Source of the DNA: Pseudanabaena sp. PCC 6802
Lineage (GTDB): Bacteria; Cyanobacteriota; Cyanobacteriia; Pseudanabaenales; Pseudanabaenaceae
Length of the DNA: 64,000 nucleotides
Assembly (NCBI RefSeq): GCF_000332175.1
Contig: NZ_KB235914.1
Coordinates: forward strand, 2,724,868 to 2,788,867
Reading direction: 5' to 3'
Of this stretch, positions 8,975 through 55,902 are shown one piece after another. The notes under the pieces are model-generated. The model did not search any database and was not told the DNA's origin. It saw nothing but the letters and a program-made list of their open reading frames with translations. The position numbers were made by a program, and so were the translations under genes. Numbering within the stretch: the first letter of the stretch is position 1; every line of letters begins with the position of its first letter.

Positions 8975-9721
8975 ATGAAATTTTCTACACGTTACACCTT
9001 TTTCACTTTGCTTTTAGTCCTTTTATCTGCCAGCCTGCTTCCTCTAGATGCATTTGCCCAACGCCGTGGCGGCAACGTTAACAGAGCAGGTGCTTCTCCG
9101 CGCGTCAACAGCAACGTCAACCTAAGGGATAGAGGGAATATCAATCGCCCCAATGCGAATCGTCCTAATATTAATCGCCCCAACAACAATATCAATCGCC
9201 CCAATGTGAATGTCAATCGCCCTAACAACAATATCAATCGCCCCAATGTGAATGTCAATCGCCCCAATACCAATATCAACCGCCCCAATGTGAATGTCAA
9301 TCGCCCTAACATCAACGTTAATCGCCCCAATGTGAATGTCAATCGTCCCAATGTCAATATCAACACTGGTTGGCGTGGGGGTGGTTGGTATGGCGGCGGC
9401 TACCGCACCCCACCAGGTTGGGGATTGGCTACATTTGCCACTGGCCTAGCGATCGGAACAGCGATTAATAATCGCCCACCCTATGCCGTCCCCGTAGTCG
9501 TGGGCGGGAATAACTTTATCTACTCAGATGGGGTCTTTTTGCAACCTAGAGGCAACTCTTACGTCGTTATTGCGCCTCCGATTGGTGCGGTTGTGCCTTC
9601 TATACCTGATGGTTGCACGGTAACTAACACTGATGGAGTAATATATTACAACTGTAGCGGCGTTATCTATCAGCCCTTCTACCAGGGTAACAACCTCGTC
9701 TATAGAGTTGTCAGGTTCTAA
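8975..9721 (+). CDS. Secreted Asn-Arg-Pro-repeat protein with C-terminal DUF6515-like domain
   Basis: 248 residues. Signal peptide to about residue 28 (DAFA-Q), then a basic repeat region (residues about 45-130) built from 6- and 8-residue units of the type INRPNVNV, then a Gly/Tyr-rich GGGWYGGGYR linker and a C-terminal domain with NNFIYSDGVFLQP, SYVVIAPPIGAVVPSIPDGC and YYNCSGVIYQP. The last part fits the DUF6515 pattern (YYxDGVYY and VVxPPxGxxVxxLP). Two cysteines in the domain may pair. It sits directly behind the DUF2092 gene and ahead of an MscS channel. Its positive repeat could contact nucleic acid, polysaccharide or peptidoglycan; that is speculation. Confidence 0.75.
   Translation: MKFSTRYTFFTLLLVLLSASLLPLDAFAQRRGGNVNRAGASPRVNSNVNLRDRGNINRPNANRPNINRPNNNINRPNVNVNRPNNNINRPNVNVNRPNTNINRPNVNVNRPNINVNRPNVNVNRPNVNINTGWRGGGWYGGGYRTPPGWGLATFATGLAIGTAINNRPPYAVPVVVGGNNFIYSDGVFLQPRGNSYVVIAPPIGAVVPSIPDGCTVTNTDGVIYYNCSGVIYQPFYQGNNLVYRVVRF
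9137..9363 (+). repeat. Coding tandem repeat (AATCGCCCCAATGTGAATGTC-type units)
   Basis: In-frame repeats inside the Asn-Arg-Pro-repeat gene. Units of 18 and 24 bases alternate with core AATCGCCCCAA; synonymous differences (CCC/CCT, AAC/AAT) show that the units are not all recent copies. Expected to vary in number between strains. Confidence 0.85.
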
Positions 9722-33192: not shown

Positions 33193-33334
33193 GTGAGAAA
33201 CTATCCAATCTCTCATCAACTGTCTGAATTGAGTGAGATATATGACCTTCATATAGTTTGAACCAGCTTTGTAACGTCATATAAGCTGTTTCAAACCATT
33301 GGTCGAACATCAAGAATATTCAGAGGAGGACGAT

Positions 33335-36300
33335 ATGAACATAATTGCATTTAACGAACATGTTAAGCAACTGCGTGTCAGAGATCCGATGGTTGCTGTT
33401 ACGTTGAACCCTGAAAAAACTGCGATCGCCATGCTTCGGGGAAATCTTGCAGATCCAGTCAATGTGGGGGAATTGACAAGAGCACCTTACAACTACGCCC
33501 GACAATTCATTCGAGAAAACCAGGTGCTTTTAGGTGACATTGATGGAGGGACGACACTCGAAAATCAAAGGGTAATGACCGATCGACAGGGCATGACCCA
33601 TGTAATCTTCGCCCAGAAGTATGGAAATGCCGAAGTTCTGGGGGGAAACGTGGCAGTTCACTACGGAGTAGATGGCGCTGTCTACCTGATCAACTCTACC
33701 CTTGCTGCTGCCATCGACGTGCCTGAAAGACCTCAGATTGAGTCTGCTCATGCCATAGAAATTGCTAAAGAACACGCTGGTGCTGGTGCTACCTTTTACG
33801 AGAACATGGAGCCTGCTCTGGTTGTGGCTGATGCCAAGACACTCCATAAAGAGCAAGAACCCCAGAAATACTACCTTTGCTGGCGGATGAGGATCGTCCC
33901 ACCCCGAGACAGTAGAATTCCAGATTCTATTTATCTGATAGACGCTATTGAAGGGGAAGTCCTTCTTAGATATTCTGCATTGCAAAACATAGGAACCGGA
34001 TACTATTCAGGCGGTGCGGCTTTGAATTCTGAGGCTTCTAGTGGAACGTTTCGACTACGAGATGCCGCAACATCGGCAGCATGGACTGCTGCTACAAAGC
34101 CTGTGATTCATACGTATGATGATGCAAATTCTGGCAGTTATAGCTTGAGGAACTACTCGGAAGATGCCAACGACAACTGGGATAACGGAGGGGCGATTCC
34201 TGCAAATCGTTTGGACGATCAGCGGGCTGAAGTGGATGTCCACCGCTATTTGGGTCACGTCATTAGTTACTACTGGCTCACGCATGGACACAACAGCTGG
34301 GACGACACCGGTGGGGACGTGAGGGGCCACGTACATAATAGCATTATGGTGAACAACGCCTTTTGGGATCCCAATACCAAAGAAATTTACTTTGGCGATG
34401 GAGATGGCACGACGCGCGACTTTTACACTCCGTTGGACGTGGTCGGCCATGAATTCACTCACGGGGTCAATGACCATTTCAATATAATTCAGACCTATGA
34501 CGGGGAGACCGGAGCCTTGAATGAGGCGGTTGGCGACCTCTTCGCCGCCTTCATTGTTCAGCATCATCTGGCAGAAGACCTCTCCCCTTGGGAACAAGGT
34601 CAACAGTATCGACTGGACGGAACGCCGGGTCGCAATATGATCGATCCAAGCCGCGACACAGCGGGATTTGTCCGGTACGATGCCACCAGCGACGCGACCA
34701 AACACACTAGCAGCCAAGGCGGCTTTTACCCCGACCATTATAGCATCCGATATACCGCTACCGACGACCCAGACCCAGACAGAAACGACAACCATGGCGT
34801 GCACATCAACTGTCCGATCGTCACCCATGCAGTCTATTTAATGATTAATGGCGGCACTCATCGCCTGTCTGGGATTACCGTGACAGGTATAGGCGTCGGG
34901 CCTATCGAACAGATGCTATATCGTGTCATCTCGACTGGACTGCTCACCAACGCATCGGATTTTGCTGCTTTCCGCTTAGCATTCATTACTGCCTGTAAGG
35001 ATCTCTATCCAGGTAACCTGAATTACTTGCTCGCGGTCAAGACAGCCTTCCATGCGGTTGGCATTGGCCCCGATTTGGGCATGCACTTCATTGTTGAACG
35101 CAGCACCATCGGTGAGGACGAAGTCAATGCTCGTCGCGCTGCCGGGAGTGCCGCTATCTCCGATGCATTCAGGGTTGTGGTTGATGGGTTTACAGCGGCT
35201 GAAATCGGGATTACCGGATCTGGCGATAAATTGGATGTGCTCTCGCCGATAGGTGATGACATGGAGATCGACTGTACGGGCAACACATCAGACAGCGGTG
35301 CCTACGGAACGGAAGAGCAGCGGTTTACCTTCCACTATGAACTCGATTTTGGCTCGAATAACGATGCATTTAACTTCCCCGATCCGACCAAGTTGCTTAC
35401 CCTGGACGTGGCAATCCCGAGCCTCAACCTCTCTAACTCCGCTCAGATCGAATTGATCAAACAGCCCAACCCATTCATTCTGCACGGAGATCCTCCGTGG
35501 CTAAGTGTCGACCTTCGCGTCTTTGTTGTAAGAGCAGACGAAACAAAATTTGGTGTGACAATGAGCAATGATGCTTCGGATGCTCCGGGTTTCATCCAGG
35601 ATGTTATGAAAGCCTTGACCGATGGAAAGGGTGTGGCCGATGGGCAGTCATTTAATAGCCTTTCGACCGATCAGGAAGCATCATCACTCTATCTCCAGCC
35701 GACGGACGGAAGTGGTGATAAAGTCTTTAATTTTGCGATTGCCAAAGTGCACTACATAGGCACTATCGGCGCAGCAAACGTACGAGTTTTCTTCCGCTTA
35801 TTATCCACTCAGTCAACTAGCTTTGCTTACGATATTCCCCCTGGAACCGTTTACCCGATGACTGGCAGCTATCGGTTCTGGTCTGATGGTACGTTTGGGG
35901 GAAAGAAGATCCCGCTGGCTGGTATTCAAGGGAACGATTACGTAACGATACCCTGTTTTGCCTTGCCGCGCGTTGACACTGCAAGCACGAGTATGACAAT
36001 GCAGGATGACTCTCGGACAGATAGCAGTGGAAATGTCTTTGGCAATGTCCAAAGTATAACCCCGAATACAGATGGATCCGAGGTAGACATATTCTTTGGC
36101 TGTTGGCTGGACACCAATCAGCCGTTTAAGCCAAATGGGGATCCCAACACCGTTCTCCCCATTAATGTGGCAGCAAATGTTGATGGTCCTTTTACCGCTG
36201 CCGACGCACCACTATCCATCCAGGAGTCGATTATCCGCAACGGGCATCAGTGCCTGATTGCTGAGATTGCGTTCGACCCAGTTGAAATTCCAGTCGGTAA

Positions 36301-37360
36301 GGATCCATCGAACTGGGATAAGCTAGCGCAGCGCAATATAGCATGGAGTCCCATCGGTTCCGCGCAGGCGGTAAGCACCTTTGAAATCCGACCAACCCCA
36401 ACGAGAGCAATTGAAGCAGACCAGATGCCGGACGAGATCATGATCGACTGGGGTAATACACCACGGGAAAGCGTAGCGACCCTTTATCTCCCTGAAGTCA
36501 ATGTCGCCGATATCCTGGCGATGGCTAACAGGATGTACACAACCCATCGACTGGAACAGGTCGATGACCATACCTTGCAATGCCCTACTGGTGGCATCAC
36601 CTATGTTCCTATCCCAGCGGGGACAGACACTAACTACGCTGGTCTGTTGTCTGTCAATCTACCTGAAAGGCTAGACCCCGGTCAGGTCTTTAACATCGCT
36701 GTGCGGCAAGTAACCAATGCCTTTGGTCATCGTCCGCCAGAGCCGCCCCGTGTTGCTATGATGGCAGCGACATCAATTGTGCTGCCAGATATGACGTGGC
36801 GAACCGTTTTAGGGGCATTCCAACTCACCATTCCGGTGAAAACCAAGGCAGAATTGCTGGAGTCAGAGGCACGGCAGCTCTCCGTGCTGCGCTGGATTCA
36901 AGCAGCAATCCCTCCGGATAATCGATGGTATGCGGTGTTCAATCAGTACGTGGGCGAAACTGCGAATCGCGTCGATGCTTTTGGTGGCGATTCTGGCCAG
37001 GTTGAAGCATCACCGACTGGAGACTGGCAGAAAGTACGGCTCTGCCGGACATTAGCTATCATCTGTGCCGTCTCACTGGCGGTCTTCCTCGTTGCTCTTG
37101 GCATAATGACCAATTGGGTAGCTGTCGCAGTGATTGCAGTCTTCCTAGCTGCGATCGCCTTCACTTGGGTAATCCAGTGTCAACCCAAAGTTTGCAGCAA
37201 GCTGTGGGTTATTGCTACGGGCGCAGGCATTGGTGCCTTGATACTGGCAATCTTGGTACTACTTGGAGTATCGTCACCGCAACTTGTATCGGTTCTCTGC
37301 GGCGCGGTTGCTCTAACGGCGATCGCTGGTGTGGTTGGAACCCTTCACAGGTGCTTCTGA
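33335..37360 (+). CDS. Very large M4 (thermolysin-like) metallopeptidase with C-terminal membrane segments
   Basis: 1341 residues from ATG 33335, which has a strong AGAGGAGGA eight to fourteen bases upstream. Residues about 1-250 resemble an FTP/PepSY-type propeptide. The catalytic domain shows HEFTH (His372, Glu373, His376), the third zinc ligand Glu397 in GALNEAVGD, and the transition-state His490 in NHGVHIN; all are intact. Residues about 600-1220 are beta-rich and unassigned. The last 110 residues contain four hydrophobic segments after GDWQKVRLC. No signal peptide is visible, which is odd for an M4 enzyme. Flanked by remnants and MITEs, so probably acquired. Confidence 0.88.
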   Translation: MNIIAFNEHVKQLRVRDPMVAVTLNPEKTAIAMLRGNLADPVNVGELTRAPYNYARQFIRENQVLLGDIDGGTTLENQRVMTDRQGMTHVIFAQKYGNAEVLGGNVAVHYGVDGAVYLINSTLAAAIDVPERPQIESAHAIEIAKEHAGAGATFYENMEPALVVADAKTLHKEQEPQKYYLCWRMRIVPPRDSRIPDSIYLIDAIEGEVLLRYSALQNIGTGYYSGGAALNSEASSGTFRLRDAATSAAWTAATKPVIHTYDDANSGSYSLRNYSEDANDNWDNGGAIPANRLDDQRAEVDVHRYLGHVISYYWLTHGHNSWDDTGGDVRGHVHNSIMVNNAFWDPNTKEIYFGDGDGTTRDFYTPLDVVGHEFTHGVNDHFNIIQTYDGETGALNEAVGDLFAAFIVQHHLAEDLSPWEQGQQYRLDGTPGRNMIDPSRDTAGFVRYDATSDATKHTSSQGGFYPDHYSIRYTATDDPDPDRNDNHGVHINCPIVTHAVYLMINGGTHRLSGITVTGIGVGPIEQMLYRVISTGLLTNASDFAAFRLAFITACKDLYPGNLNYLLAVKTAFHAVGIGPDLGMHFIVERSTIGEDEVNARRAAGSAAISDAFRVVVDGFTAAEIGITGSGDKLDVLSPIGDDMEIDCTGNTSDSGAYGTEEQRFTFHYELDFGSNNDAFNFPDPTKLLTLDVAIPSLNLSNSAQIELIKQPNPFILHGDPPWLSVDLRVFVVRADETKFGVTMSNDASDAPGFIQDVMKALTDGKGVADGQSFNSLSTDQEASSLYLQPTDGSGDKVFNFAIAKVHYIGTIGAANVRVFFRLLSTQSTSFAYDIPPGTVYPMTGSYRFWSDGTFGGKKIPLAGIQGNDYVTIPCFALPRVDTASTSMTMQDDSRTDSSGNVFGNVQSITPNTDGSEVDIFFGCWLDTNQPFKPNGDPNTVLPINVAANVDGPFTAADAPLSIQESIIRNGHQCLIAEIAFDPVEIPVGKDPSNWDKLAQRNIAWSPIGSAQAVSTFEIRPTPTRAIEADQMPDEIMIDWGNTPRESVATLYLPEVNVADILAMANRMYTTHRLEQVDDHTLQCPTGGITYVPIPAGTDTNYAGLLSVNLPERLDPGQVFNIAVRQVTNAFGHRPPEPPRVAMMAATSIVLPDMTWRTVLGAFQLTIPVKTKAELLESEARQLSVLRWIQAAIPPDNRWYAVFNQYVGETANRVDAFGGDSGQVEASPTGDWQKVRLCRTLAIICAVSLAVFLVALGIMTNWVAVAVIAVFLAAIAFTWVIQCQPKVCSKLWVIATGAGIGALILAILVLLGVSSPQLVSVLCGAVALTAIAGVVGTLHRCF

Positions 37361-53086: not shown

Positions 53087-55687
53087 ATGTTGAATGAGAC
53101 TCTAGTCGGACGCTATCAGATACTCCAGCATCTTAGCAGTGGAGCTTTTACAGAAACGTATCTAGCTGAAGATATTCACTTACCCGATCGCCCTCAATGT
53201 AAGGTCAAATGGCTGAAAACAGAATCTCTTACACCTGAGGCGATCGCAATTGCCAGAAATTTATTCCAATCGGAAGCAAGAACCCTGGATATTTTAGGCA
53301 CGCATTCCCAGATTCCTAATCTGCTCGCTCACTTTGAGCAGAACCAGCAGTTCTACATCGTCCAGGAATTTATGGCCGGGGAAGGTTTAGATCGAGAGTT
53401 AATGTCTGGAGCGAGATGGAACGAGCTGCAGGTAATCGCTTTTTTGCGCGAAGTGCTGAATATTCTCCAGTTTGTCCACCAGCACAATGTCATCCATCGC
53501 AACCTCAAGCCTAAAAATCTGATTAGACGTAGTTTCGATGGTAAGTTTGCTCTAATTGGGTTTAATGGCATCGAAGAGATTTATGCTCCAGCGACAAAGC
53601 TCCAATCCGCCCAAACACAGATGCATTCAACATATTCAAGTAAGATTCAGATATCCGATGGTTACGTGCCGCTAGAACAAATGGCAGGCAACCCAGGCTT
53701 TAGCAGCGATATCTACGCGCTGGGTAAGATCGCTATCTACGCTCTCATAGGTAACCCACCCAACTACTTACCAACAGACTCCCAAACTGGTGAGGTAATC
53801 TGGCGACCGGGTACATTAGTGAGCGATCGCACGGCGGCAATTATCGACAAAATAGTGAGAGCGCACCCCCGCGATCGCTACCAAAGCGCTAGTGAAGTAA
53901 TCGCAGACCTGAATAATCCACAGCGCCCTGTATTCGCAGTACAACCAAATATTGATACTGGTAGCACCTTCAATACTATTACCAGTAAAGTCAGTAATGC
54001 ACTCAGCCGGATTAACTGGCAGCAGTACTGGCAGCGATATCAGATACCGCTTTCGATCCTGGCAGGAGTGGCAGTCTTAGCGACGACCGCCAGCATTTCC
54101 TATTTCGCGTTCAAACCCAAGGACAATCCCACCGTTAGCAATTCAACAAACTCGCAGGAAACAAATCCAACTAACGCCCAGGGCTTTGTCGAACGGGGGA
54201 ATAGCCGGATCGAAGCAGGTAGATATACAGATGCGCGGGCGGATTTTGATGAGGCCATCAGATTAGATCCCAATTCCGTTGATGCCCAGTTTGGTAAAAC
54301 CCTAACTCAGGCATTTCAACTAAATCTCGATCGCAAATATCCAGAAGCGATCGCCGAATTTGATAAATTAATTGCCCTCCAGCCTAACTCCGGCTTGGCA
54401 TTGGTCGGCAAGGGAAATGCACTATTCGGTCAAAGACAGTACGACGAGGCACTCAAAGCCTACGATCGCGCCACCCAGGTCAAGCCCGATCTCATTCTCG
54501 GCTGGACTGGTCGCGGACTTGTTTTGTCCAATTTGAAGAGATACGATGAGGCACTGGCTGCCTACGAGCAAGCCCTCAAAATCAAACCAGATAGCACGTT
54601 CGCTCTAGTTAGCCAGGGCGATACCCTCCGCTTCAAAGAGCAATATCAACAGGCTATCCCTATCTATGACAAAGCGATCGCCATTAATCCGAACTACGGT
54701 AATGCCTGGATTGGCAAGGGATTTGCGCTTAACGGCTTGGGTCAGCGCCAGGAAGCTATTGCCGCGATCGAGCAAGCTACTAAGAAAGCTCCCAACTATG
54801 CTTATACCTGGTGGGCATGGGGGACGTTACTCCAGGAAGATGGCCGACATGAAGGTGCGCTGGCAGCAGCGGAGAAGGCGATTAGTCTCGATAATCAATA
54901 TGCCGATGCCTGGAGGCTGAAAGCCAACGCGCTACTCAAACTCAGGAAACTCCCGGAATCTATCGCCGCAGCGGATGAGGCAGTACGGTTATTCCCAAAC
55001 GTTGACACTCTCACCAGTCAAGCCAATGCCATATACGAATCTGGGCAGTTTGCGAAAGCTCTCCCGATATATCAAAGAGTTGTCCAAATCGATCCCAATT
55101 TGGAGTATGGCTGGTCTAATTTGAGCGAGTTGCTCAACCAGATGAAGCGATATAACGAAGCACTTACTGCTGCGGATCGGGCGCTCAAAATTGCGCCTAA
55201 TACCTCAGGGTGGAATCAACGTGCCAATGCTTTGGTAGGGCTGCAACGCTATCAAGAGGCGATCGCTGCCTACGATCGGGTCATAAAACTGCAGCCGGAT
55301 TATCATTACGCTTTTATTGGCAAAGGTAACGCGCTCTACAGGTTGCAACGCTATCAGGAAGCGATCGATTCCTACGATCGCGCTTTAGCGATCGCACCAG
55401 TCGATCGCAAGCTGAAAGTCGAGTCCGATCGATACGCCACCCTCAATCTCAAAGGCAATGCCCTCGCGCAATTGCAACGGTATGAAGAGGCTCTCAAAAC
55501 CTACCAGCAAGCAACCGAGATCAAAGCAGATTTCCCAGAAGGCTGGCACAACCAGGGCAGAATGCAGTTTGCCCTGCAGCGATACGATGCTGCCCTCGCC
55601 GCCTATAACAAAGCTCTGGAGATCGAACCCGACTTTGCCGATGCTAAAGCAGGGCGAGAGGAAGTTCTGCGACAATTAGGGCAGTAG
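53087..55687 (+). CDS. Kinase-like protein with degenerate active site fused to many TPRs
   Basis: 866 residues. Residues about 8-270 have the fold signature of a cyanobacterial Ser/Thr kinase: YQILQHLSSGAFTETYLAED, the beta3 lysine Lys41 and VIHRNLKPKNL. The HRD aspartate is Asn139 and the DFG aspartate is Gly158 (LIGFNG), and the glycine loop has lost two glycines. Phosphoryl transfer is therefore unlikely. A hydrophobic helix follows at about residues 318-342, and then some fifteen TPR units fill residues 360-866, probably on the other side of the membrane. Likely a membrane scaffold or sensor. Confidence 0.87.
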   Translation: MLNETLVGRYQILQHLSSGAFTETYLAEDIHLPDRPQCKVKWLKTESLTPEAIAIARNLFQSEARTLDILGTHSQIPNLLAHFEQNQQFYIVQEFMAGEGLDRELMSGARWNELQVIAFLREVLNILQFVHQHNVIHRNLKPKNLIRRSFDGKFALIGFNGIEEIYAPATKLQSAQTQMHSTYSSKIQISDGYVPLEQMAGNPGFSSDIYALGKIAIYALIGNPPNYLPTDSQTGEVIWRPGTLVSDRTAAIIDKIVRAHPRDRYQSASEVIADLNNPQRPVFAVQPNIDTGSTFNTITSKVSNALSRINWQQYWQRYQIPLSILAGVAVLATTASISYFAFKPKDNPTVSNSTNSQETNPTNAQGFVERGNSRIEAGRYTDARADFDEAIRLDPNSVDAQFGKTLTQAFQLNLDRKYPEAIAEFDKLIALQPNSGLALVGKGNALFGQRQYDEALKAYDRATQVKPDLILGWTGRGLVLSNLKRYDEALAAYEQALKIKPDSTFALVSQGDTLRFKEQYQQAIPIYDKAIAINPNYGNAWIGKGFALNGLGQRQEAIAAIEQATKKAPNYAYTWWAWGTLLQEDGRHEGALAAAEKAISLDNQYADAWRLKANALLKLRKLPESIAAADEAVRLFPNVDTLTSQANAIYESGQFAKALPIYQRVVQIDPNLEYGWSNLSELLNQMKRYNEALTAADRALKIAPNTSGWNQRANALVGLQRYQEAIAAYDRVIKLQPDYHYAFIGKGNALYRLQRYQEAIDSYDRALAIAPVDRKLKVESDRYATLNLKGNALAQLQRYEEALKTYQQATEIKADFPEGWHNQGRMQFALQRYDAALAAYNKALEIEPDFADAKAGREEVLRQLGQ

Positions 55688-55713: not shown

Positions 55714-55902
55714 TTGCTTGGAGATACTTTGTATGGTGCATTTCAGCCTAATTATCCCGACGCTTGGTTTGCTAAGGGTATAATACTGCCAAAGCTAGGG
55801 CGACATCGAGAAGCAGTCGCTGCCTATGATAAATCGCTGGCACTAAAACCCGGCGATCGGGTAGTGCAAGATGCCAGACAAAGAGCAGCAGCTAATCTCT
55901 AA
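55714..55902 (+). pseudogene. TPR fragment after the kinase-like gene
   Basis: A 62-codon frame with no ATG (TTG only) encodes one TPR and a little more: NYPDAWFAKGIILPKLGRHR and EAVAAYDKSLALKPGDR. It is in a different frame from the gene before it and follows its stop by 26 bases. Best read as the decayed end of a longer TPR array, or of a deleted neighbour. Confidence 0.55.

Follow-up and report, generated by a model that had tools for sequence, protein, structure and literature searches.

A 64,000 nt stretch of Pseudanabaena sp. PCC 6802 DNA (here termed the window) contains a kinase-like open reading frame in which both catalytic aspartates are replaced. The question raised by this locus is whether the kinase domain is a decaying copy or has been kept for a role other than catalysis. 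The frame was previously read, from sequence alone, as a membrane TPR protein with a pseudokinase domain, and this layout is confirmed (Table 1). Pfam gives a Pkinase match (PF00069) at residues 10–265 (67.7 bits with a threshold of 31.7) and places TPR families C-terminal to it, the hydropathy profile displays one transmembrane (TM) stretch at about residues 320–344, and a 34-residue scan counts 14 TPR units. The array length of about 500 residues is likewise as described, however it is not exceptional, as "very long" would imply: cyanobacterial kinases with TPR(10), TPR(11) and up to TPR(18) are listed in the accessible part of a 2007 survey (PMC2176072). Promoter and terminator scans gave scores no better than those of shuffled sequences.

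Table 1. Features of the PCC 6802 locus; positions are those of the window.
Feature	Residues	Position	Strand	Basis or remark
CDS, pseudokinase, single TM helix and TPR array	866 aa	53087..55687	+	ATG start, no internal stop
Kinase-fold (pseudokinase) domain	1–280	53087..53926	+	Pfam, AlphaFold2, Foldseek
Eroded Gly-rich loop LSSGAFT	16–22	53132..53152	+	Comparison with canonical relatives
Beta3 KVK, Lys41 kept, Lys39 at adenine-contact position	39–41	53201..53209	+	Comparison with canonical rows
HRN replacing HRD	137–139	53495..53503	+	93-domain alignment
GFN replacing DFG	158–160	53558..53566	+	93-domain alignment
Divergent activation segment, extra residues relative to relatives	161–198	53567..53680	+	Alignment A1; pLDDT <50 at 164–188
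Predicted transmembrane helix	about 320–342	54044..54112	+	Hydropathy
TPR array, 14 units	364–850	54176..55636	+	Pfam, 34-residue scan, co-linear with G201 orthologue

The active site was compared across 93 aligned kinase domains. Ninety of these are canonical and were chosen for K41, D139 and D158; the remaining three rows are the PCC 6802 protein, L053 (from genome G201, see below) and L014. The set took 40 of the 80 loci found with an alignment termed A1, a search biased to intact kinases since one of its selecting patterns contains HRD, and left out L017, L023 and L025–L030, which are partial or remote (L024 is the same gene as L017). Asn139 of HRN, Gly158 of GFN and the retained Lys41, all three pointed out in the sequence-only reading, are seen in this alignment. 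With D139N and D158G, and K41 kept, the protein falls under the bioinformatic definition of a pseudokinase, i.e. loss of the beta3 Lys, the HRD Asp or the DFG Asp.

Among the 40 columns that are at least 95% conserved the PCC 6802 protein has six differences (L91I, D139N, D158G, G160N, K163E and G189I), five of which are in the catalytic loop, the DFG region or the activation segment. Residues G160, N144, E63, E197, D208 and R264 are present in 90 of 90 canonical rows and the protein departs from these at G160 alone; it also retains H137, R138 and K141. The motif loss is therefore not an accident of alignment, because N144, E63, E197, D208 and R264 align and are kept. In the glycine loop, T22 is found in none of the 90 canonical relatives and S17 in eight. 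Position 39 is V in 82 canonical rows, A in six, F in one and I in one, and is never K. It is equivalent to Ala70 of PKA. The alanine position of this beta3 strand is considered a specific marker of activity in the VRK3 paper, as far as its consulted sections go (PMC2639636). The losses at S17/T22, Lys39, N160, E163 and I189 go beyond those reported earlier and, as changes in sequence, point the same way as D139N and D158G, toward a non-catalytic role.

The AlphaFold2 model of the domain, built on an alignment of 33 of the 80 loci, has a mean pLDDT of 86.3 and a pTM of 0.84 and is confident except in the activation segment at 164–188. The top Foldseek matches to the model are PknA/PknB-type kinases (E-value = 5.5e-17), which together with the Pfam match place the domain in the Hanks-type protein kinase superfamily. 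The domain order (kinase, TM, TPR) and the related kinase domain place the whole protein among the cyanobacterial kinase-TM-TPR proteins. Since the predicted PknB-like fold is good while residues of the ATP pocket and of catalysis are altered, the kinase fold appears to be retained and its chemistry lost.

The PCC 6802 genome (G000, 5.62 Mb), the one genome that covers the genus, displays 34 kinase-domain matches, 30 of which were read. The closest are L002 and L003, two canonical kinases encoded adjacently on C1 and 53–54% identical to the pseudokinase domain. In kinase-domain searches of 39 genomes and of 388 genomes (six candidates scored in each of the 388) the identity of the matches never exceeded 54%, and a related-locus search with the first 351 residues returned no locus. 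A full-length search of the 388 genomes with two candidates per genome returned only the PCC 6802 protein; it missed the G201 protein (707 bits) and is thus not evidence of absence. Two other kinase-like proteins of this genome have altered motifs. L014 (G000:C5:2891816-2892631), which has a very long tree branch, is pseudokinase-like, with beta3 Lys replaced by Ser, HGD and DFA, followed by a TM stretch and WD40 repeats, and L028 (G000:C5:4150828-4151352) displays HRE and DWM ahead of a WD40-like region. L023 and L030 are short kinase-domain fragments (frames of 95 and 171 residues) and are possible remnants.

An orthologue was hidden from the kinase-domain searches and was revealed by the repeat array. 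It is found in G201, a genome of another family in the same class, where kinase row L053 belongs to an 857 aa protein, P0002. L053 stands at 48% in the 388-genome kinase-domain list and its orthology was recognized only from motifs and array. The two proteins align end to end at 43.6% over 908 columns with 707 bits, the next of 14 proteins having 408 bits. Compared on the array only, the pair reaches 471 bits in register, whereas the next-best register yields 112 and the next protein 194; in length the two arrays are about one whole unit apart (14 versus 15), and they have their odd spacings in common. When 348 genomes were searched with a profile built on the array's most distinctive segment, 11 candidates being scored per genome, G000 and G201 reached 287–291 bits and none of the remaining 346 exceeded 111 bits. 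Because of this full-length co-linear match and the restriction of high profile scores to G000 and G201, the two proteins are, by sequence comparison, a rare and patchy orthologous pair (2 of 348 genomes). The DNA pattern for GWSNLSELLN, with at most one mismatch, is present in four of 388 genomes; it is exact only in G000 and G201, and the single-mismatch loci are L164 and L165. A kinase-domain search of the genus (one genome) and family (36 genomes) of G201 gave no further orthologue. Among 93 plasmid records from a tblastn search with an array segment none reached at least 60% identity, the best being from Kovacikia minuta (46%, 102 bits). No conserved gene neighbourhood was seen between the PCC 6802 and G201 loci.

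The G201 kinase domain is also damaged, however in a different manner. It has RSSEFT in the glycine loop, keeps HRD, has K141H and N144H, and reads GFG (D158G), with the same structural residues as the PCC 6802 protein. D158G and T22 are the degenerate states common to the two proteins; D139N and G160N are not. The idea of a lone decaying copy was set aside, because the active site in G201 is degenerate as well. The sequence-only reading took orthologues with HRD and DFG intact as the sign of a single decaying copy; in G201 HRD is kept, DFG has become GFG, and there is other damage. Conservation of HRN/GFN in an orthologous group, the check suggested in that reading, does not hold in the only orthologue found. 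Intact close paralogues with the kinase-TM-TPR layout are present in both genomes; in G201 the pseudokinase gene (L167:7953-10526) has one of these (L167:10826-12562) as the gene immediately after it.

In a wider comparison, an HRN-x-KP-x-N pattern matched 19 of 388 genomes, and 16 of the 19 loci are kinase-like as judged by eye. Among these, GFN is found in the PCC 6802 protein alone. Both aspartates are lost in six of the 16 (the PCC 6802 protein, L066 and L078–L081), all but the first having NFG, and TPRs follow the kinase domain in four (the PCC 6802 protein, L066, L068 and L074). As motif states differ across the 16 loci, the losses are scattered and the loci have no HRN/GFN signature in common; a conserved signature of this kind was rejected, given also the HRD/GFG of the orthologue. 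L066, L068 and L074 are kinase-TM-TPR proteins with HRN or HSN, and L066 in addition has NFG and an altered glycine loop. L078, L079, L080 and L081, from four genomes that belong to a single genus (f26, g109), represent an HRN and NFG kinase-like protein, which by sequence seems to form a separate conserved pseudokinase group.

Proteins of this general kind are already in print, since the accessible part of the 2007 survey covers both cyanobacterial kinases lacking the aspartate and long TPR-kinases (PMC2176072). Five of its 286 cyanobacterial kinases are without the catalytic Asp, as is the PCC 6802 protein; SpkE is among those listed and, from its description there, is without TPRs, unlike the PCC 6802 protein. 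Tery_4781, a TPR(11) protein, is named among nine kinases with deviating motifs. The cbSTKII kinases with TPRs of that survey, here L002, L003, L033, L045 and L084, have the same domain order and kinase domains 48–54% identical, but HRD, DFG and the beta3 Lys are present in them. A 2025 review, according to which bacterial pseudokinases have seen little experimental study, describes seven families of them, and "tpr" or "tetratricopeptide" is absent from its main text (PMC12599244). Its CP1 family is cyanobacterial and displays variable loss of catalytic motifs, as here; CP1 is, however, described there as without TM and linked to a COG3899 ATPase, whereas the PCC 6802 protein has a TM helix and TPRs, and no ATPase is among the 25 of 30 Pfam matches listed. 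A literature search, run with terms other than the organism's name, brought up no account of this protein itself.

Two eukaryotic pseudokinases can be compared at the active site. Human VRK3 is inactive and does not bind ATP; it displays a degraded glycine loop, HGN and GFG with the beta3 Lys and a structural ion pair kept (PMC2639636, in the sections consulted). The PCC 6802 protein is thus like VRK3 in the glycine loop, the beta3 Lys, the Asp to Asn and Asp to Gly changes and the fold; the two are kin only at the level of the kinase superfamily, and TM or TPR segments of VRK3 are not mentioned in those sections. HER3 also has HRN and is a membrane-bound partner of active kinases, but it keeps DFG and the glycine loop and binds ATP, according to the parts consulted of PMC4718504 and PMC2639636, while the PCC 6802 protein has lost DFG and part of the loop.

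The PCC 6802 protein is probably a membrane-anchored, catalytically dead pseudokinase that is kept as a protein-binding module and would pair with an active kinase. An evolved non-catalytic role is favored over a decaying copy because of the residues lost, the intact 866-codon frame, the retained fold and the degenerate orthologue. The binding or scaffold role proposed in the sequence-only reading is thereby strengthened in part; the absence of HRN/GFN conservation and the occurrence of the pair in only 2 of 348 genomes weigh the other way. With the phosphate loop, catalytic base, Mg-binding Asp and Gly, and activation segment altered in a fold predicted to be intact, the domain would be unable to bind Mg-ATP productively or to transfer phosphate, and Lys39 probably also fills the adenine pocket; the domain would accordingly have been retained for the surface it offers to other proteins. 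The TPR array, probably periplasmic, would hold a partner, and the presumably cytoplasmic N-terminal domain would pair with and modulate an active kinase. The most plausible partners would be the closest kinase-TM-TPR paralogues, i.e. L002/L003 in PCC 6802 and the next-door L170 in G201. By analogy with VRK3 the protein would likely act as a scaffold in the membrane or as a partner of active kinase-TPR paralogues, and overall it looks like a pseudokinase by sequence and a retained binding module of a kind already recognized.

The free trees of kinase domains, which lean toward separate closest kin for the two proteins, count against this and fit parallel decay, whereby the TPR array is the working part and a dispensable kinase domain has decayed separately in two lineages, or in G201 was first replaced by a copy of a paralogue's domain and decayed afterwards. 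In the tree of 93 domains the PCC 6802 protein joins L002/L003 (support 84, end branch 0.90). A second tree has 73 rows, after 29 remote or long-branch rows were dropped and nine added, and a third has 30 of those 73; across the free trees support for PCC 6802 with L002/L003 is 83–86 and the PCC 6802 end branch is long, 0.8–0.98. When active-site columns are left out the free tree places PCC 6802 with L002/L003 (86) and L053 with its neighbor L170 (95). Rare shared residues tie L053 to L170 (four) more than to PCC 6802 (two, T22 and G158, both in the active site), PCC 6802 and L002 also sharing two, and past about column 40 L053 is closer to L170 than to PCC 6802 in every block, a pattern that could reflect copying from the neighboring gene in G201. 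Nevertheless, a grouping of PCC 6802 with L053 is not rejected. When all columns are used, the free quick tree overlooks this grouping although the grouping scores 18.7 log units higher (p-AU 0.81); without active-site columns the grouping scores 1.9 log units lower (p-AU 0.44). T22 and G158 are common to both proteins, no stop interrupts the frame within the domain and, whether the loss is ancestral or parallel, sequence comparison indicates that both members keep the damaged domain with its structural residues intact. Ancestral and parallel loss are both plausible on the trees, and separate relaxation of a dispensable domain is a less likely reading than a retained module.

The retention of N144, K141, K41 and E63 in the PCC 6802 protein also counts against a dead scaffold; with these kept the domain may still bind nucleotide weakly. 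An atypical active enzyme, with CASK-like Mg-independent transfer or some other use of ATP, would fit the retained K41, E63 and N144, and the HRD and GFG of G201 resemble those of the active kinase CASK (PMC2639636 Table 1 and PMC4718504, as consulted). Loss of the Asp is no proof of inactivity, since SpkE, listed without it (PMC2176072) and first reported inactive, was later reported active in the part seen of PMC11863333. The PCC 6802 protein, however, has neither catalytic base nor Mg ligand and has an eroded glycine loop and K39, while CASK retains its glycine loop and HRD (PMC2639636, same sections), and enzyme activity seems improbable. A gene recently dead and on its way to a pseudogene would account for the 54% ceiling on kinase-domain identity among the sampled genomes and for a single TPR unit with a tail, out of frame, at window positions 55744-55902 directly downstream of the stop. 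The 866 open codons and the co-linearity of the whole array with G201 make this very improbable indeed. Because the G201 protein ends where the PCC 6802 protein ends, the fragment is not a lost C-terminus and is probably a remnant of another TPR gene.

A bolder form of the favored partner role, a bacterial counterpart of a receptor pseudokinase in which an ATP-independent TM partner pairs by way of its dead kinase fold with active kinase-TPR paralogues and tunes them according to periplasmic TPR cargo, is rather doubtful. If true, the layout would have yielded dead partners several times (PCC 6802, G201, L066, L068 and L074). The concrete result is an orthologous pair with the same layout and different active-site damage, and each genome also encodes intact sister kinases (the neighboring gene in the case of G201), a set-up in which pairing is directly testable.

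Two other open reading frames of the window were noted by eye. The frame at 33299-37360 has 1353 residues; its N-terminal half resembles a metalloprotease (HEFTH) and its C-terminal part contains hydrophobic segments. The frame at 8975-9721 displays many NVNRPN-type repeats ahead of a C-terminal domain.
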